In this document: positions 27,837-36,267 of the stretch, piece by piece | Numbering within the stretch: the stretch's first letter is position 1 | How the letters are laid out: every line of letters starts with the position of its first letter | DNA from: an uncultured Eubacteriales bacterium | Lineage (GTDB): Bacteria; Bacillota; Clostridia; Lachnospirales; Lachnospiraceae | DNA length: 39,582 nucleotides | Direction: 5' to 3' | Assembly (NCBI GenBank): GCA_900315665.1 | Contig: OMZX01000033.1 | Span: forward strand, 1-39,582 | Translations under genes and position numbers: made by a program | The notes under the pieces: model-generated | Databases searched by the model: none | What the model saw: the letters and a program-made list of their open reading frames with translations, nothing else | What the model was told of the DNA's origin: nothing

Positions 27837-28067
27837 AACTTGACTCCTTTCGAAGCTACCATAATTAAATACGCAAATACGCGGATTTAGTTAAAATTCT
27901 CTGTGGTAAATTCGTTACGGATTTTTTACAAAATGTAACAAATTTCTATCTTTACTTGTCTTTCCTTTGTTTTCTGCCTCATCTTAACAGTGCATGCTGA
28001 AATGAAACTGAAAAACGTTGAAAAGACTTGTAACGAAATCTTTCTGCCATAAGGCACATTAAGGCAT

Positions 28068-28135
28068 AAAAAACGGAGCAGAGAATTTCTTCAGGTGACC
28101 TTCAAATGTTACCTGCTAAGAAATTCTCCACTCCG
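28068..28135 (-). terminator. long terminator of the HPr-lactate dehydrogenase gene
   Basis: A long, slightly interrupted stem spans 28074-28135: CGGAG with CTCCG, GAGAATTTCTT with AAGAAATTCTC, and AGGT with ACCT. On the minus strand it is followed by six T (28073-28068). The rest of the 359-base gap to the wall-binding gene start shows inverted GTAACGAA copies near 27912 and 28033 and little else. Confidence 0.8.
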
Positions 28136-28195
28136 CCTTTTTACGGTTGCAGCTTATTCGTGAGCTTCGCTCTCACACCTCTATTCTGTTATTTG

Positions 28196-29506
28196 TTAAT
28201 CCGGAAGCTTCACTTCGGCATCACCATATGGCTTGCCGGTGCTGAAATTCAGTGCATTCTCCATCGTCGTGGTTGCGATCGCCTGCAGTGCCTCTCTTGT
28301 GAAGAAGGCCTGGTGCGATGTTATGACAACCTGCGGATAGAACTGAAGTCTTGCTGTGATATCGTTTGTGATAACATCACCTGAGTGGTCGGTGTAGACA
28401 TTCTGCTCCTCGCCCTCGTATACATCAAGTGCCACCGCATGAAACTTGCCGGCACGAAGTGCTTCGAGAAGTGCGTTGTTATCGATGAGGCCGCCTCGGG
28501 CAGCATTGACAAGCATCACATCATCCTTCATACGGCTGATCGCTTTTTCATCGATAATATGATAGGTACCTCCCTCGCCCATGATAAGCGGCGCATGGAG
28601 AGAAATAAGGTCAGACTTTTCGAAAAGCTCCTCCTTCGTCACATAGGTGAGAAGTCCTTCATCCTCAAGCTTCCGGTTCGGATAAGCGTCCCAGCCAATC
28701 ACCGTCATACCATAGCCCTTGCAAATGCGTGCGAAGCATTGACCGATTCGGCCGGTGCCGACAATTCCGGCAACCTTGTTATGAAGATCCAGGCCGACAA
28801 GTCCGGACAGAGCAAAGTCATTATCGCGGATTCTGGAGTAAGCACGCTGAAGCCGACGGTTTGCCGCCTGCAGGATCGCCATCGCATGCTCAGCTACTGC
28901 ATACGGAGAGTAAGCCGGAACGCGAAGAACCGTCATGCCATATTCCTTCGCAGCCTTCAGATCGACGTTGTTAAATCCTGCGCAGCGGAGCAGAATCAGC
29001 TTCACGCCGCAATCATGCAAAATCTCGATCACCCGACGGCCGCAGTCGTCATTGACGAAGATGCAGGCAGCATCATAGCCCTTTGCAAGTCCTGCCGAAT
29101 CCTCTGTGAGACGAGCTTCGAAATAATGAATATGTGAGTTATAGGTATCGTCTCCCTTCGGATGAGAAAGCTGTGCAAAAAACGTCTTATCATAATCCTT
29201 CGTGCCGAAGAACGCGATCTTAAATACCTTCTGCTTATCGAGCTTCTCAACCGGGTGATCCCTAAAAAAGGCCTCCAACTTGTCTGCCGCTTCGAGCTCA
29301 TCCTCGCCTTCAATCATGAGATGAATTTCCTCGCCCTTCTTAATGTCGAGCGAAAGAATCTGCAGCACATTCTTTGCGTTGGCAAGCTTGCCGTCCTTCT
29401 CGATCGTAACCTGGCTCTTCACGCCACTCGCGATCTGTGCGACATGCGCCGCCGGTCTCGCATGAAGACCAAACGGAAGATTGATAGCATAGAAAAGTTC
29501 CTTCAT
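28196..29506 (-). CDS. HPr phosphocarrier domain fused to D-lactate dehydrogenase
   Basis: One uninterrupted 436-residue reading frame joins two enzymes. Residues 1-88 are an HPr domain with the phosphorylatable His15 in GLHARPAA; position 46, the regulatory Ser of Gram-positive HPr, is Asn (NAKNVLQ). A linker of only a few residues leads to FKIAFFGTKDYDK, which aligns with the first residues of ordinary LdhA. Residues 95-436 hold YSPYAVAEHAM, the NAD site GTGRIG (250-255), Arg337, Glu366 and His398. The spacing of the three catalytic residues (29 and 32) is that of D-lactate dehydrogenases. It should reduce pyruvate with NADH. AGGAGG upstream gives a clear start, and a long terminator follows. 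Confidence 0.92.
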   Translation of the reverse strand: MKELFYAINLPFGLHARPAAHVAQIASGVKSQVTIEKDGKLANAKNVLQILSLDIKKGEEIHLMIEGEDELEAADKLEAFFRDHPVEKLDKQKVFKIAFFGTKDYDKTFFAQLSHPKGDDTYNSHIHYFEARLTEDSAGLAKGYDAACIFVNDDCGRRVIEILHDCGVKLILLRCAGFNNVDLKAAKEYGMTVLRVPAYSPYAVAEHAMAILQAANRRLQRAYSRIRDNDFALSGLVGLDLHNKVAGIVGTGRIGQCFARICKGYGMTVIGWDAYPNRKLEDEGLLTYVTKEELFEKSDLISLHAPLIMGEGGTYHIIDEKAISRMKDDVMLVNAARGGLIDNNALLEALRAGKFHAVALDVYEGEEQNVYTDHSGDVITNDITARLQFYPQVVITSHQAFFTREALQAIATTTMENALNFSTGKPYGDAEVKLPD

Positions 29507-29530
29507 TGTGATTACCTCCTGTTTGTTATT

Positions 29531-29558
29531 ATTTTAACATGCCGTTAGTCAATTGCAA
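29531..29558 (-). promoter_or_regulatory. putative promoter of the HPr-lactate dehydrogenase gene
   Basis: On the minus strand TTGCAA (29558-29553) and TAAAAT (29536-29531) are 16 bases apart, with TGT before the -10 box. The leader would be about 18 bases and carries the AGGAGG site. Confidence 0.45.
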
Positions 29559-29592: not shown

Positions 29593-31062
29593 TCACATCA
29601 TCCTGCTGTCATGGCAGGTGAAATACAAGACCTGATATTCCTTTGATATTGCAGAAAGAAACTTGAGTGCATCCGTCATCTTCTCCTGATCGAGGTTCAC
29701 GAAGGAATCATCAAACAGAAGGAAAGGCTTCTCTTCTTCATACATTGCATCAACCATCGCCATCCGGTGACAGAGTCCGACGAGATCCTGATAGCCCGCG
29801 CTAAGAAGCTTGACATTCCGCTGCTTTCCAAGCTCCGTCTTCGTCACCGACAGCTTTGCATCCAGCACAAAATCCGGATCCTTCGCACCAGTAAGAAGTG
29901 CATAATACTGATCAAACGCCGCCTGCATCGGCGCCATATAGTGCTTTAGGAAATTATCCTTTGCGGCCGTCAGATATTTCTCAGTGAGGCTGATCACATC
30001 AAAAAGCCTCTTTTTCTCATCACTGGTCTCCTGCAGATTCTCACGCTCGGCGGAAATCTCCGTGATGGCTTCAAATTTATCCGAATATTCCTCCGCCCGC
30101 TTCTCATATTCCCGAAGCGTCTGCCCCTTTTCCGTAGTATCCTTCTCTATAACAGAAATTGCTTTAGAAAGCGAATCGATGTCGTCCTCGGTTTCCGGCT
30201 TCCGGATTGTTTCAAACCTGGCAACATCATGCGCTTCTGTAAATGTCCGAAGTGCCTGTTCCCGCTCAGTAAGCGCCTCTTTCAACGGCTTAAGTGCCAA
30301 AACATGATCCCGCACTGTTGTGAGCTCCGTATCCTCCGGGAGTTGATACTTTATAAGAAAAGCCTCCCTCTCCTCATGAATCCTAGAAAGCTCCTTCTTA
30401 GCAGCTTCTGCATCCTTCGATCGTGAAAGAAGCGTCTGATACTTCTCTCCATCCTCACGAAGCGCTATGATATCTTCAAGCATATGCGCTTCCTCAAACA
30501 AAAGGCCAAATCTGTTGAAAAAATCCGTCAAATCTTTGATCAGCGCCTCTGCTTTTTCCTCATAATGCTTCTGCCGGTATTGTTTCTCCTTATCGGACAG
30601 CTTTGCAAAACGTACACTATCCTGTTGTAGCCGGTACAGCGTGTTCAGCACATTGTTTTCCTGAAACGGCATCTTCAATCTCTGGAAGAAGGCTTCCATT
30701 TGCCGAAGGATTTCAGTGGATTCCGCTGCATCATGTTCGATCTTTTTGCCAAGTTCAAGAAATGCCGGGGAAAAATTCTTTTGTGTGGAAGAATTATGAT
30801 TTCTGATGAAATAAAAGATAAAAAGTATCACGCCAGGAATCAAAAGTGACAGCATCCCTGTTTTCTTTGTCACCGCAAAGAGAATCACAGCCAATACAAA
30901 AAAACAAATTCCCACAAGAAGAATCGGTTGCCGATCTCTTCGTTCGCTTTCCTCTGCGGAAAGTTTCATCTGTTCGAAGCCCGCACGCCTTGCAGGCAGT
31001 GCGCTCTCGATGCCCTGTCGCTCCTGCCATGCACGGATGCCTGCAGAAATCTCCTCCTCGGA
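29593..31062 (-). CDS. YhaN/SbcE-like ATPase, C-terminal part after an in-frame stop
   Basis: This frame continues directly from the N-terminal part after a single TAA at 31063-31065. It carries two membrane helices (QPILLVGICFFVLAVILF and a second around LIPGVILFIFYF), long coiled coil, and the C-terminal ATPase lobe with KLLSAGYQDLVGLCHRMA and Walker B PFLLFDDSFVNLD. The first ATG in frame is at 30969 with no ribosome site. GAGGAGGAG lies just after the TAA but is followed in frame by ATT. Without the N-terminal Walker A half it cannot be a working ATPase alone. Either the gene is broken, or the stop is read through, or two chains associate. Confidence 0.75.
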   Translation of the reverse strand, partial: SEEEISAGIRAWQERQGIESALPARRAGFEQMKLSAEESERRDRQPILLVGICFFVLAVILFAVTKKTGMLSLLIPGVILFIFYFIRNHNSSTQKNFSPAFLELGKKIEHDAAESTEILRQMEAFFQRLKMPFQENNVLNTLYRLQQDSVRFAKLSDKEKQYRQKHYEEKAEALIKDLTDFFNRFGLLFEEAHMLEDIIALREDGEKYQTLLSRSKDAEAAKKELSRIHEEREAFLIKYQLPEDTELTTVRDHVLALKPLKEALTEREQALRTFTEAHDVARFETIRKPETEDDIDSLSKAISVIEKDTTEKGQTLREYEKRAEEYSDKFEAITEISAERENLQETSDEKKRLFDVISLTEKYLTAAKDNFLKHYMAPMQAAFDQYYALLTGAKDPDFVLDAKLSVTKTELGKQRNVKLLSAGYQDLVGLCHRMAMVDAMYEEEKPFLLFDDSFVNLDQEKMTDALKFLSAISKEYQVLYFTCHDSRMM

Positions 31063-32193
31063 TTACGTCCGTCGAAATCCATCGAGTGCTTCCTTCTCTT
31101 CATCTGTCAGCGCTTCTGCCAGCATATTCGTGCGAAGCTGCCGGAGCTTTTCTGCTTTCTCCTTCTCCGCACCAAGCTCTGCCTGATCCGGTATCCCGGT
31201 GCTAAATTCCTTTTCAAGATGAGAGAGCCTCTTCTCAAGCTCCGGTGTCAGCTGATTTTTCGAAAGGCTGTCTTCTATAGCAACCATATGCCCTGCATCT
31301 TTTATAAGGGGCTCAAGCTCTGCTTCAGTCGGTACCTCTCCCGAAAATGCATCTCGTTCTTCTTTGTATCGCTCCTCCGCTTTATCCTTTTCCTCCTGTA
31401 ACGCCGCATAGCTGTTTTTCTCCGTAAGAACAGCCTGATACGCCGTCAAAGCATCCCTAAGCGCGCTCTTTTGTTTTCTTTCCTCCTGCGCCTTCACAAG
31501 CTCTGCGCGAAGCATCTCCATCTCTGCATTTGTCTTATCAAGCGCTTCCTCGATATCATCCTTTTTCTGCAGCTCCGCATCAAGCTCTGCCAGCCGGTTC
31601 TGAAGCTTCTTCACCTCGCCCGTCGCTCGCCGCGGTGAGAGTGCATTAGCTTCATCTGTGAGCGTGGCCATCGCACGATCATAAGACATAAGATCACCCG
31701 TCTCATTGATCCCGCCGATTTTTGCGCTAATGCTGTCGGTCGGTGCTGTTACGACGTCCTGTTGTCCGATGAAAACGGTTTTTGTGAAGGATTCTCTGTC
31801 AATCCGGAACAGTGCTTCGCCGATATTCTCTCCGAAATCCGTGGAGGGCAGATTCGTCGTCTCATCATAGAGCATAAAGCTGTCATTTTTCTTTTCGAAT
31901 ACACGCTCAATCCGATAGGTCTTTCCCTTTGTTTCAAATACGAGCTGTCCGCCATAGACACCGCCCTGCCATGGTGTATACCGCATCCGCTCATTCTCGG
32001 TTTCGTCACGCTTCCGGTCATTAGAAAAGCCGTAAAACATCACGCGAATAAAGGCAGCCAGCGTGCTCTTGCCGGTTCCATTCTCCCGGAGGTAAGCATT
32101 GAGCCCATCCTGGAACTTGAGGTCAAGTCCCGATAGCTTCCCGAAATTTTCCACATGCAGTGAAATCAGTCTCAAAATATTTCCGCCTTTCAT
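31063..32193 (-). CDS. YhaN/SbcE-like ATPase, N-terminal part ending at a premature TAA
   Basis: This 376-residue frame begins RLISLHVENFGKLSG and has the Walker A ENGTGKST, then IGQQDVVTAPT, then coiled coil. It is the N-terminal half of the large SMC/Rad50-like ATPase that partners the YhaO nuclease. The frame stops at TAA 31063-31065 and would otherwise run on in the same frame to 29593, giving about 866 residues. The start may be the TTG at 32175, since AAAGGCGG lies before it and homologues begin MRLISL; the ATG at 32193 has only a weak site. It lies just downstream of the yhaO-like gene. Confidence 0.8.
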   Translation of the reverse strand: MKGGNILRLISLHVENFGKLSGLDLKFQDGLNAYLRENGTGKSTLAAFIRVMFYGFSNDRKRDETENERMRYTPWQGGVYGGQLVFETKGKTYRIERVFEKKNDSFMLYDETTNLPSTDFGENIGEALFRIDRESFTKTVFIGQQDVVTAPTDSISAKIGGINETGDLMSYDRAMATLTDEANALSPRRATGEVKKLQNRLAELDAELQKKDDIEEALDKTNAEMEMLRAELVKAQEERKQKSALRDALTAYQAVLTEKNSYAALQEEKDKAEERYKEERDAFSGEVPTEAELEPLIKDAGHMVAIEDSLSKNQLTPELEKRLSHLEKEFSTGIPDQAELGAEKEKAEKLRQLRTNMLAEALTDEEKEALDGFRRT

Positions 32194-32260: not shown

Positions 32261-33463
32261 CTACAGTTCTATCTGCTCACCGTTCAACGCCTGGAGGCCG
32301 ACGCGAATGATGGCAGACTTTTCATCCTCGGAAAGAGAGCTATCTTCTTCCAGGAGTCGAACGAGCTCACCCTTCAGTGATTTATCATTCCTGAAATCTG
32401 TATAATGCACGGCTACCTTCGTTTCATCCTTTACGCGGAGATAATAATATCGGTCCTTAAAACGACTAACGATAAGTACTGGATTTTTCTCACAGTTCAC
32501 ATCGACATTGCCGGTCAGGACGATCTTTACAAGATCCTTCGGATTCGCTTCACAATCATTGAGCGCCTTTTCCACGAGCGGAAGCATCTCTGTCGTTGAT
32601 AAGCAGGCAGAAACATCGACCGGGACAGCATAGAAATTCCGCTTTGCAAACGGGACAAATGTACGCTGCATCGTGAGGCTCTCTTCATTGATATCAAGCA
32701 GTACGAAGCCATGTTCTCCAGTTTCATCGAAACCACGCCCCTCGAGACAGCCCGGATAGCAGTACACACCGCGCGGTAACAGTTGCCCTTCTTCATAGCT
32801 ATGGACATGTCCGAGTGCAAGATAATCGATGCTCTTGTTGCGGAGTTCCCCTAAATTGATCACCTCTACATGATCCTTTGGTTTATATTTTGCAAGCTGT
32901 CCGTGGAGGGTCACAATGTTAAAGTCCTGCGGCCGGAGCAGAAGCGTTTCATAGATGGTGTTCTGGTTGTCGGCATTGAGCTCCACGCCTGTCAGGACAA
33001 TGTTTCCCTTTTCACTTGTTCCGAGGATATAACTCTGCCAGTGTTCACTAAAGGTGTAAAGATTCTTTGGAAGCTCTGAACCCTCTGTATCCTTTTCGAC
33101 AGCATTAACTATATTTTCAGCAGCATTTGTATCTTCAGTGGTATGATCTGCATCACGATTTGATTTTTCCTGATTGGAGATAAATCCGGAAAGATCATGA
33201 TTCCCCTGTAAATAATAGAAATTGATATCCGGATGCTGACGGATGGTATCCATCACAGTCTTTTTTGCATGCACCCCGATGACCTTTTTGTCGAAAAGGT
33301 CTCCAGCTATGAGAACTGCAGAAACGCCATTTGTCTCGGCATAATCCACCATATTCATATAAGTTTCCAAAAGCTCTGTTTTTCTTTGTTTCGCCTGTTC
33401 CTTCGAGAGATGCGACTCCATTTTCGAATCGAGATGCAGATCCGCACAGTGAATGAGTTTCAT
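32261..33463 (-). CDS. YhaO/SbcD-like metallophosphoesterase nuclease
   Basis: This protein of about 400 residues belongs to the Mre11/SbcD family. The metal motifs are MKLIHCADLHLDS, LIAGDLFDK, LQGNHDLSG, TLHGQLA and LGHVHSYE, in order. The start at 33463 is chosen because MKLIHCADLH is the conserved family N-terminus, GGTAGGGA lies upstream and TATAAT sits about 30 bases before it; the frame remains open further upstream through a terminator hairpin, which is not coding. A C-terminal region follows from about residue 290. It should process DNA ends together with the downstream YhaN-like ATPase, whose gene is interrupted. Confidence 0.88.
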   Translation of the reverse strand: MKLIHCADLHLDSKMESHLSKEQAKQRKTELLETYMNMVDYAETNGVSAVLIAGDLFDKKVIGVHAKKTVMDTIRQHPDINFYYLQGNHDLSGFISNQEKSNRDADHTTEDTNAAENIVNAVEKDTEGSELPKNLYTFSEHWQSYILGTSEKGNIVLTGVELNADNQNTIYETLLLRPQDFNIVTLHGQLAKYKPKDHVEVINLGELRNKSIDYLALGHVHSYEEGQLLPRGVYCYPGCLEGRGFDETGEHGFVLLDINEESLTMQRTFVPFAKRNFYAVPVDVSACLSTTEMLPLVEKALNDCEANPKDLVKIVLTGNVDVNCEKNPVLIVSRFKDRYYYLRVKDETKVAVHYTDFRNDKSLKGELVRLLEEDSSLSEDEKSAIIRVGLQALNGEQIEL

Positions 33464-33491
33464 CGAATTCCCTACCTTTCTATCTGCTCCT

Positions 33492-33497
33492 ATTATA
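33492..33497 (-). promoter_or_regulatory. -10 box of the yhaO-like gene
   Basis: A perfect TATAAT on the minus strand lies 28 bases before the yhaO start and directly downstream of the reductase terminator. No good -35 box is visible at 17 bases. Confidence 0.4.
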
Positions 33498-33521
33498 CGA
33501 ATTTCCTGTGCCGGATGCCAC

Positions 33522-33591
33522 AAAAAAGCGGAGCCTCCGGTGATATTCCGGAGGCTCCGCCTCAAGTTTCAACCGGCAAAGCCGGTGAAAC
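33522..33591 (-). terminator. double hairpin terminator of the reductase gene
   Basis: A first stem at 33566-33591 (GTTTCA plus CCGGC arms) is followed on the minus strand by a perfect 13-pair stem, 33528-33540 with 33548-33560, and six T. Two stacked hairpins isolate the reductase from the yhaO-yhaN genes. Confidence 0.85.
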
Positions 33592-33675: not shown

Positions 33676-36267
33676 TTACTTGTTATCCTCGTCGATTGCA
33701 TTGGCTGCGGTACGGCCAGATACAAAGATCTCCGTGATCGCGTTACCGCCGAGACGGTTACCACCGTGGATACCACCGGTAACCTCGCCGGCTGCATAGA
33801 GGCCTTCGATTGCCTTGCCGCTCTCGTCAAGTACATGACGCTTTGTATCGACGACAACACCACCCATCGTGTGGTGCGTTGACGGAGCAAGAAGTCTGAT
33901 ACGAAGATTTACGCCATCCAGCTTATAGGTATCTGCCTTGTAGCTGCCGTCGTCATTCTTCTCGCAGGAGCCAACCAGTGCGGATACCTGCTTCTTGCCG
34001 ACATCCTCCGGCTGCTCACCGGCAATAGCTGCTTTGTCATACTTCTCGATCGTTTCCTTGACCGTCTCAGCATCCGTCTCGAGGCCAAGCTCCTTGAAGA
34101 GGTCTGCAAGCTGATCAACAGTTCTTACATACTGTCTCTTCTCGACATCCTCATCCTTATACGGATACGGTCCCGGAATCGGGGTCTCAGCATTGGCGAT
34201 TTCAATGAATACACCCTTTGCGCCATCCATCTCGATGCCGTTCTTAAACTCGTTGAGGGAAAGAACGTCACGCTCAGAGGTCTCATCGACGAAACGCTTG
34301 CCGGTTGTCGGGTTGATATATACCGCATAGTCACCACCGCCGAATGCGAGGTTACCATTGTCGATCCAGGAGATCGGCATGAGCTGTGTAAAGCCAAGGC
34401 CTGTTACTGCAGCGCCGGCTTCCTCAGCCATCTTAATGCCATCACCCTGAAGAGAGCTTCTGTTTGTGGTCTTCGTGCTGGTGCTGAGATACTCAGAAGA
34501 CCAGTACTTGTTCTCGTCTACAACCATCTTGATGTTTGCAGCATATCCACCGGTAGCGAGTACGACACCCTTTGTAGCATGTGCCGTAACCTTCTGTCCA
34601 TCATAGCCTGTTGCATTAACACCCGTTACCTTGCCATCCTCTACGATGAGAGACTCAGCCGTCGTTCTCACGAGAATCTGGTTCTTTTCATTAGCATTCT
34701 TAAAGGAGGTCATCGGTGCTACGAAGTAAGTGCCCCAGCGTCCCGGATATTCCTCTGTCTTGCCATCGCCGTCAGTGTCAACATTGGCACCGATGAACTG
34801 GTTCTCTCTGTACCAAAGGGCACCAATCAGTGTCGGCTGCGTATCCTCTACAAAGGTGGAGCCCATGGACTCGAGCCAAGGCTTAAGATCCTGTCCATCC
34901 TTGATGAACTGAGATACGAGATCTACATCGCCATAAATCCACTCGGACTTATCTGCGCTCTGACGAAGGCCACCATAGTAGGTCTGGAAAATATGAAGGT
35001 TAACCGTTGAGAACAGGGTTAACTTCGACTCCGGTGTGCCGGCCTTTAATTTCGGCTCTGCCCAGTCGAGATATGCCTTGATCTCCTTCTTCAGCTCCTG
35101 AAGAACCGGGAGATAATCTGCCACAACACCGTGCTTCGAAAGTTCATCGATGTCACCGGCAATATACTCATGATCCTTGTAGTAATCCTCATCAAACGGC
35201 TCCTCGGACCAGTTCTCGATGGTCTGGAGCTCCTTGATACAGCCAGGAACGGACATAACCTTGTTATATTCCTTGCCATCAAAGCCTGTACCGGTCGTCG
35301 CATCCGGGTTCTCCGGATCCCACACGAGGTACTTCATCACAGACTGATACTGACCGCCGGATACCAGTGTATTACCACCGATTTCAGCGTTCTTCTCGAT
35401 GACGAGAACGGTATCACCATTCTGTGCTGCCTGTGCAGCCGCCGCCATACCAGCACCGCCGGCACCGACTACGACAACATCCCAAGTGTCATCAATATCT
35501 GCTGCAGGTGTTACCTCAACCTTGTTTGACTTAAATGCATCAAGATCGGAAACCTTAGCTTCCTCAGCTGCTGCATTGACTGCATCCTTCAGTGCTCTTG
35601 ATGAGAAGGTTGCACCGGATACTGAATCAACGCCTGTGCCATTGCCTTCGATCATAGCCGGAATCAGGTCGTCAAAGGCTGGTGTACCGACATGCTCGGT
35701 TTCCTTCGAATCCTTAACCTCGATATCTGAAATTGCGCTATCTGTAAAGGTTACAGCTACGGTAACCGGGCCATTGTAACCTGTACCGGTTCCCTCATAC
35801 GTACCAGCTGTATAGGTAACAGCCTTGTTGCCGGATGCTTCCTCGCCGCCTGCTTCACCGCTCTGTGCCTTTGCAAGTGCATCAGCAAAAGCCTTCTTCA
35901 CAGCGTCAGATGTGATCGTTGATCCGGAAACGGCATCAACATCTGCGGATTGCTTCTCAAGAAGAAGTGGCTGCAGTGTCTTGATTGCTTCGCCGCCCTT
36001 TTCCGGTGTTTCCTTATCACCAGTGATCTGAACATCTGTAATCTTTGATACGTCTACGGTCAGTGTAACAGTAACATCACCACCGAAGCCCTGTGCTGTC
36101 GCGCTGTAGGTGCCCGGAACATAGGATCCGGAAGCCGCTGCCTCAGCAGCTGCAGCTGTCGTAGCAGCCTGTGTCGCTGCTGTAGTCTCCTGTGTTGAAG
36201 AACCGCAGCCGGCGAGTGTCGTCAGCACGATCCCTGCAACAAGCAGACCGCTCATCATTTTTTTCAT
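33676..36267 (-). CDS. extracellular flavinylated reductase lipoprotein (two FMN-bind domains plus fumarate-reductase-type FAD domain)
   Basis: This 863-residue protein has a lipoprotein signal with LAGC (Cys21) and an Ala/Thr-rich linker. Two FMN-bind domains follow (about residues 49-137 and 148-240), each with a covalent flavin motif, SGSTITS and SGATFSS. A FAD domain opens with VVVVGAGGAGMAAAAQ and ends with HHTMGG and GGNRLGGNA. The arginine of ETSERDVLS matches the proton-donor Arg of Fcc3-type fumarate reductases. The usual His of TQxHP is Met here (TQLMP), so the acceptor may not be fumarate. Flavin attachment needs an ApbE enzyme, not seen here. AAGGAGG upstream fixes the start; a CCGGT palindrome precedes the promoter. 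Confidence 0.9.
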   Translation of the reverse strand: MKKMMSGLLVAGIVLTTLAGCGSSTQETTAATQAATTAAAAEAAASGSYVPGTYSATAQGFGGDVTVTLTVDVSKITDVQITGDKETPEKGGEAIKTLQPLLLEKQSADVDAVSGSTITSDAVKKAFADALAKAQSGEAGGEEASGNKAVTYTAGTYEGTGTGYNGPVTVAVTFTDSAISDIEVKDSKETEHVGTPAFDDLIPAMIEGNGTGVDSVSGATFSSRALKDAVNAAAEEAKVSDLDAFKSNKVEVTPAADIDDTWDVVVVGAGGAGMAAAAQAAQNGDTVLVIEKNAEIGGNTLVSGGQYQSVMKYLVWDPENPDATTGTGFDGKEYNKVMSVPGCIKELQTIENWSEEPFDEDYYKDHEYIAGDIDELSKHGVVADYLPVLQELKKEIKAYLDWAEPKLKAGTPESKLTLFSTVNLHIFQTYYGGLRQSADKSEWIYGDVDLVSQFIKDGQDLKPWLESMGSTFVEDTQPTLIGALWYRENQFIGANVDTDGDGKTEEYPGRWGTYFVAPMTSFKNANEKNQILVRTTAESLIVEDGKVTGVNATGYDGQKVTAHATKGVVLATGGYAANIKMVVDENKYWSSEYLSTSTKTTNRSSLQGDGIKMAEEAGAAVTGLGFTQLMPISWIDNGNLAFGGGDYAVYINPTTGKRFVDETSERDVLSLNEFKNGIEMDGAKGVFIEIANAETPIPGPYPYKDEDVEKRQYVRTVDQLADLFKELGLETDAETVKETIEKYDKAAIAGEQPEDVGKKQVSALVGSCEKNDDGSYKADTYKLDGVNLRIRLLAPSTHHTMGGVVVDTKRHVLDESGKAIEGLYAAGEVTGGIHGGNRLGGNAITEIFVSGRTAANAIDEDNK

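Follow-up and report, generated by a model that had tools for sequence, protein, structure and literature searches.

An HPr phosphocarrier domain joined to an LdhA-type D-lactate dehydrogenase in gut and rumen Firmicutes

The fusion gene and its dehydrogenase

The window analysed here is the whole 39,582-nt contig OMZX01000033.1 (assembly GCA_900315665.1) from an uncultured Eubacteriales bacterium of the Lachnospiraceae, and all coordinates refer to its forward strand. On the minus strand, positions 28196-29506 carry a single ATG-to-stop frame of 436 amino acids in which an HPr phosphocarrier is followed by a D-lactate dehydrogenase (LDH). A first-pass annotation had reported this two-domain frame at the same coordinates, with no mention of the strand, and Pfam bears it out with each domain above its cut-off. 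The PTS-HPr domain (PF00381; 84.4 bits, cut-off 23) covers residues 7-82 (29261-29488, minus strand); in the dehydrogenase part, 2-Hacid_dh (102.6 bits, cut-off 24.6) covers residues 112-426 and 2-Hacid_dh_C (151.6 bits, cut-off 25.1) residues 210-400. The NCBIfam HPr model TIGR01003 is also passed, at 75.7 bits against a cut-off of 47.9. Pfam finds no EIIA or Enzyme I domain in the protein, which consists of HPr and 2-hydroxyacid dehydrogenase domains only.

The fold predicted from 54 sequences (mean pLDDT 85.3, pTM 0.71) is confident in the HPr part, where block means run from 88 to 95 over residues 1-80 and the predicted strands and helices follow the HPr-like order. Confidence is lower for the relative placement of the domains and for the variable linker (residues 84-94; 29225-29257, minus strand), whose alignment columns are poorly conserved and around which mean pLDDT is 71 at residues 81-90. 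Residues 95-433 (28208-29224, minus strand) form the dehydrogenase domain by Pfam and PDB matches, and the presence of both Pfam domains together with the Arg/Glu/His triad makes it LdhA-type. The three catalytic residues that the annotation saw in place are Arg337 (28496-28498), Glu366 (28409-28411) and His398 (28313-28315), all on the minus strand; we take their role to be the one they play in the D-2-hydroxyacid dehydrogenase family. Like Asp273, each is invariant among the representatives compared, in 46 of 46 fusions and 47 of 47 stand-alone enzymes.

Which substrate does the dehydrogenase use? A PDB sequence search places the LDH part nearest the D-lactate dehydrogenases of Fusobacterium, Pseudomonas and E. 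coli, and the best Foldseek matches in the PDB are those of Pseudomonas aeruginosa and Fusobacterium nucleatum (43-46% identity over the LDH part). The fusion shares 43-46% identity and residues R337, E366, H398 and D273 with the fermentative LdhA enzymes of F. nucleatum (5z21), P. aeruginosa (5z20) and E. coli (5z1z), but differs from them in its N-terminal HPr, small clade-specific insertions and C-terminal tail. The fusion clade is marked by extra residues at 118 and 309-310, by Trp272 in all 46 fusion representatives versus Tyr or Phe in all 47 stand-alone ones, and by the tail itself (residues 428-436; 28199-28225, minus strand), which is mostly clade-specific, with E431 in 42 and V432 in 40 of the 46 fusions and a gap in all 47 stand-alone enzymes. 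The fusion stays below the curated cut-off of every NCBIfam LDH model, the best being vanH_gen (207.5 against 540) and PRK12480 (181.2 against 579), so the assignment of the substrate rests on homology: the enzyme would reduce pyruvate to D-lactate with NADH. If it acted mainly on another 2-oxo acid, the phosphotransferase system (PTS) would be linked to something other than lactate. The missed cut-offs and the clade-specific residues near the cofactor domain could be read in this way, but the closest PDB matches are fermentative D-lactate dehydrogenases and lactate permease genes adjoin the fusion at some loci, and we regard another main substrate as highly improbable. At three loci at least (L067, L066 and L070), a separate second 2-hydroxyacid dehydrogenase gene lies just downstream of the fusion.

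A strong ribosome-binding site, AGGAGG (29515-29520, minus strand), can be seen ahead of the gene, together with a weak match to a sigma-70-like promoter (29531-29558, minus strand), TTGCAA-16-TAAAAT with TG ahead of the second hexamer; the region contains four promoter-type sites, where shuffled sequence contains 2.0 (sd 1.4). On the 3' side, a long hairpin with a T run (28062-28150, minus strand; RNA fold -41.2 kcal/mol, z -7.8) is a probable terminator, absent from the list of a simple terminator scan. Given the strong ribosome-binding site, the weak promoter match and the very stable hairpin, the fusion is probably a single-gene unit. A Rex-like palindrome, ATGTTAAAATAATAACAA, overlies the -10 hexamer (29523-29540, minus strand), with two mismatches to a Rex consensus. 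Sites within two mismatches of that consensus precede 12 of 80 fusion genes versus 4 of 300 other genes, several of the 12 being near-copies of one another. Sites of the cre type are not enriched upstream (36 of 80 at up to two mismatches versus 32.4 in shuffles).

No conserved operon surrounds the 80 fusion loci, many of which have short flanks, and the neighbours vary. The only recurring one is a divergent gene for L-lactate permease, found at 8 of the 80 loci (the best 80 of 150 relatives; Pfam was applied to two of the eight, and BLAST clustering identified the others). The permease neighbours and the Rex-like sites fit a role in lactate fermentation. In the window, two adjacent frames at 29593-32193 (minus strand), one of 376 aa with an AAA_23 match and one of 458 aa that weakly matches the SMC C-terminal domain, have the appearance of a single SbcC-like ATPase split in two, with a possible SbcD-like gene next to them at 32261-33565. 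Positions 33676-36267 (minus strand) encode a lipoprotein-like protein of 863 aa that contains an FAD-binding (fumarate-reductase-like) domain as well as two FMN-binding stretches.

Distribution and single origin of the fusion

Is the joining of the two domains an artefact? The annotation had named a frameshift or assembly error near 29215-29230 as a way in which it could be wrong, and the relatives of the gene exclude this. A scan of genome contigs yielded 150 confirmed relatives, of which the best 80 are 63-82% identical to the window's protein; both domains are in one frame at 79 of these 80 loci. At the remaining locus (L012), the contig's base 1 falls inside the HPr part. At another locus, L083, a natural stop lies just ahead of the end of the matched stretch. 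The search for the two-domain architecture that the annotation proposed thus returned many relatives in several families, and its remark that no HPr-LDH fusion is described needs qualification. It holds for the literature searched: open-licence PubMed Central papers, a set that leaves most subscription papers outside, contained no description of such a protein. The fusion is, however, common in public genomes, and so it is not unique to the window although apparently undescribed so far.

Among the best 80 of 150 relatives, the hosts are Lachnospiraceae, Erysipelotrichia and Selenomonadaceae. Named carriers include Mitsuokella multacida, M. jalaludinii, Selenomonas montiformis, Sharpea azabuensis, S. 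porci, two Faecalibacillus species, Floccifex porci, Lactimicrobium massiliense and several Lachnospiraceae strains. Of 392 genomes sampled in the window's order, 3 have the fusion, the window genome being one of them, and 140 have a stand-alone LdhA alone, 44-57% identical. No full-length match was found in 16 genomes of the same genus, and one was found in 20 other genomes of the family, some of these genomes being incomplete. A sample of the window's phylum gave matches at E <= 1e-120 in 3 of 398 genomes, namely the window genome and two genomes from a single genus, which by their coordinates correspond to the two Mitsuokella fusion genomes above. The order of Sharpea has the fusion in 42 of 196 genomes and a stand-alone LdhA in 7. 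One genome (G496) carries both forms. A search of 20 fusion genomes for another close LdhA found none in any of them, the next 2-hydroxyacid dehydrogenases being 29-39% identical. Plasmid records gave 62 matches at E <= 1e-60, of which 4 cover at least 80% of the query, and none of the 10 plasmid matches listed reaches the HPr domain. A divergent second HPr-LDH fusion, considered for two genomes (G649 and G352) with matches from query residue 46, was rejected: HPr is not matched in these frames, and what aligned in addition is sequence that lies outside or is unrelated.

Has the fusion arisen more than once? For the LDH tree, 173 LDH frames were collapsed at 88% identity to 95 representatives, 46 fusion and 49 stand-alone. 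All 46 fusion representatives form a single clade (SH-aLRT 100, stem 0.59) that adjoins stand-alone enzymes of the Lachnospiraceae. None of the 49 stand-alone enzymes is nested within it, and no loss or separation of the HPr domain is seen. A single LDH clade with no stand-alone enzymes inside it indicates one fusion event. Family labels are intermixed within the clade, many of them belonging to metagenome bins, and this mixing suggests horizontal spread after the fusion had formed. The fusion HPrs, for their part, lie on one side of a branch with SH-aLRT 96, in a tree of 83 columns that gave long-branch warnings. The fusion is thus real, conserved and of single origin.

Residues of the HPr domain and its PTS context

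The codons at the two phosphorylation sites of HPr were counted on the sequence: His15 is CAT (29462-29464, minus strand), and position 46, the HPr-kinase site in other HPrs, is Asn, AAT (29369-29371, minus strand), as the annotation had read them. Crh (catabolite repression HPr) is without His15 and retains Ser46. Both Crh and the fusion HPr are paralogues with changed phosphorylation sites, but the combination of His15 and Asn46 is the opposite of that in Crh, as had been claimed, and the fusion domain is therefore no Crh. With Asn46, the window's domain also falls outside the HPr-kinase-regulated (Gram-positive) type, whose mark is Ser46.

Which parts of the domain have been kept? Comparison of 80 fusions (drawn from the window and the best 80 of 150 relatives; L012 and the HPr fragment L005 were left out) finds His15 in 80 of the 80 that cover the position, and the pair His15 and Arg17, used as a test of HPr-family membership, in 80 of 80. 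G13, A16, P18, G67 and D69 are likewise present in 80 of 80, and A20, A23, Q24, A42, V47, L48 and L53 in 78. The most conserved part of the fusion HPr is the face surrounding His15. At residue 46, the window and 80 loci (81 sequences) have N in 65, D in 8, S in 4, R in 2, G in 1 and E in 1, the Ser count falling to 3 of 80 once L012 is left out; residues found at position 45 in 80 fusions include N (31), K (13) and D (12). Free HPrs for comparison were drawn from the window's own genome and about a third of the HPr matches from 20 fusion genomes, leaving 26 after the removal of three proteins without His15. K45 is invariant in these (26 of 26), and Ser46 is missing from 10. Thus, the loss of Ser46 stands for the window and not as a hallmark of the fusion: Ser46 persists in 4 of 81 fusions, among which L009, L010 and L012 are close relatives of the window, 9 of 81 have Asp or Glu, and free HPrs, including the ptsHI-linked Lys46 form in the window genome, often lack Ser46. 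Since the surroundings of His15 are conserved and K45 and S46 are mostly changed, the Enzyme I side of HPr is kept and the HPr-kinase side relaxed. This pattern fits phosphorylation of the fusion HPr by Enzyme I with no action of HPr kinase on it. At residue 26, 75 of 80 fusion HPrs have Cys, whereas 24 of 26 free HPrs have Ala; the window has Ala26, and a redox switch at Cys26 was set aside on that account.

The HPr domain is under purifying selection, with a median pairwise dN/dS of 0.23 against 0.12 for the LDH part (medians from 170 of 1035 pairs, the others having failed a saturation filter). Per synonymous site it evolves about twice as fast as the LDH part, which implies that any tight fit to the dehydrogenase is confined to a minor part of its surface.

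The window genome has a gene for Enzyme I. Across fusion genomes, Enzyme I was detected in 40 of 41, against 315 of 393 genomes in the window's order; the samples differ in taxa, so this co-occurrence gives mild support to a PTS reading. The window genome (G000) holds further HPr paralogues on contigs C52, C21 and C31, of split phosphorylation-site type: the HPr adjoining Enzyme I has His15 and Lys46, another keeps both sites, His15 and Ser46, and a third, Crh-like, has Ser46 but no His15 and lies about 3 kb from HPr kinase. Phosphorylation duties are therefore already divided among paralogues, to which the fusion adds a further His15-only member. A search for HPr kinase gave matches in 14 of 20 fusion genomes. 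Bacillus subtilis has an HPr kinase, yet the same search gave no match in the B. subtilis control, so the absences are unsure, and absence of the kinase was set aside as weak support for the fusion reading.

Might the fused domain be an ordinary extra phosphocarrier for EII proteins, linked to the dehydrogenase for joint expression only? Its complete HPr active-site residues would serve such a function, but all of 20 fusion genomes searched have one or more HPr matches in addition to the fusion, free HPrs occur in the window genome also, and a link of mere convenience sits poorly with an LDH tree in which the fusion is never lost or separated. This explanation is very unlikely.

Elsewhere, HPr occurs as the input domain of a transcription activator. 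In the genome of the Mitsuokella multacida fusion carrier, a 560-aa protein (L219:1828-3510; G424, the genome of L014) adjoins ptsH and Enzyme I and combines HPr (57.5 bits), PAS, sigma-54 activator and helix-turn-helix domains. Similar HPr-activator frames with weak HPr matches are listed in three other selenomonad genomes.

A candidate PTS input to lactate fermentation

How does the fusion compare with known uses of HPr? It passes both HPr models, keeps His15, Arg17 and Pro18 and has the HPr order of strands and helices, but differs from free HPr in being joined to an enzyme, in its mostly Asn residue 46 and variable residue 45, and in forming its own tree group. Several PTS fusions (FruB/DTP, EI-HPr-EIIA and DhaM) join HPr to other PTS parts. 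These resemble the fusion in having HPr as one domain of a larger protein, whereas here the partner is a fermentation enzyme and not a PTS part. HPr also steers metabolism through its contacts with transporters and regulators and, in E. coli, with certain enzymes of glycolysis. Rodionova et al. reportedly showed in 2017 that E. coli HPr regulates PykF, PfkB, NagB and Adk by binding. Excerpts from two papers (PMC10305011, PMC8167557) describe allosteric effects of HPr on the same four E. coli enzymes. As in the fusion, HPr there acts on enzymes of central carbon metabolism, but as a separate protein and not a covalent one, and no LDH is among the targets in those excerpts (PMC10305011, PMC8167557). 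The fusion may be seen as a further variant of a familiar theme, in which metabolic enzymes are targets of HPr; its proposed function is attractive but putative.

On this precedent, HPr could be a constitutive allosteric or stabilising partner of the dehydrogenase, acting independently of phosphorylation in the way that free HPr acts on PykF or PfkB in E. coli when it binds them, but covalently attached, with His15 kept merely as a residue of the docking face. Besides the regulation by binding described in the excerpts (PMC10305011, PMC8167557), the clade-specific changes in the LDH part (118, 309-310, W272 and the C-terminal tail) look as if adapted to a partner. However, His15, Arg17 and Pro18 are invariant in 80 of 80 fusions amid a drifting surface, beyond what a docking face needs, and Enzyme I is nearly always present in fusion genomes. 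We consider a constitutive partner unlikely.

The reading that we favour, and hold to be somewhat probable, is that the protein is an NAD-dependent, LdhA-type fermentative D-lactate dehydrogenase with a built-in HPr as PTS input, phosphorylated by Enzyme I and tuning or positioning the enzyme. In established PTS chemistry, Enzyme I turns PEP into pyruvate while charging HPr, and does so reversibly. The charge of the fused domain would thus follow PEP and pyruvate, and pyruvate is the presumed LDH substrate. His15 would be charged by Enzyme I with PEP as donor, and the phosphate could return; His15~P would track the PEP/pyruvate ratio and drop when PTS sugars draw phosphate away. A change in the state of HPr, or its docking to pyruvate-releasing Enzyme I, would then alter the activity or the location of the dehydrogenase, the simplest outcome being increased lactate formation during sugar inflow.

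The two-domain architecture, its conservation and single origin, the intact active sites and the co-occurrence with Enzyme I are observed; pyruvate as substrate, phosphorylation by Enzyme I, any coupling of the domains and its direction are what we infer. Several lines of evidence favour the reading as a whole: a conserved fusion in one clade under purifying selection, the His15 face, the presence of Enzyme I, D-LDH matches in the PDB, the lack of another close LdhA, permease neighbours, Rex-like sites, and HPr allostery on E. coli enzymes as described in excerpts (PMC10305011, PMC8167557). Against a PTS input count the faster evolution of HPr, the short variable linker, a pTM of 0.71 with no inter-domain confidence, the mixed taxa of the Enzyme I comparison, the one genome of 41 with no Enzyme I match, the genome with both LdhA forms, the failure to reach any NCBIfam LDH cut-off, and the lack of cre enrichment.

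A related possibility is that HPr tethers the dehydrogenase to pyruvate-releasing Enzyme I, so that lactate is made at the source of pyruvate, phosphorylation itself having no regulatory role. The conserved patch A16, R17, A20, Q24, V47 and L48 lies at what, from solved complexes, we take to be the HPr-Enzyme I contact site, and a short variable linker suits a tether; pyruvate kinase, however, also supplies most of the cell's pyruvate, and a tether alone seems distinctly unlikely.

In its strongest form, the proposal of a PTS input is that Enzyme I, by phosphorylating the covalently attached HPr, lets the PTS mark a fermentation enzyme directly, making the D-lactate dehydrogenase a PEP/pyruvate sensor that gates the fate of its own substrate, free of HPr kinase and conserved in gut and rumen Firmicutes; this we put forward tentatively, as plausible. 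The single-origin, never-separated HPr-LDH of rumen and gut lactate producers would provide a natural, ready-made case for testing whether the PTS controls fermentation directly. Sharpea azabuensis is a marker of low-methane sheep, and the fusion is its only close LdhA (L037). Excerpts from Kamke et al. (2016; PMC5069950) report high expression of a Sharpea D-lactate dehydrogenase gene, with a 12-fold increase in low-methane animals, and this gene is presumably the fusion. If true, the coupling of PTS and LDH would be relevant to methane, to rumen acidosis and to the build-up of lactate.
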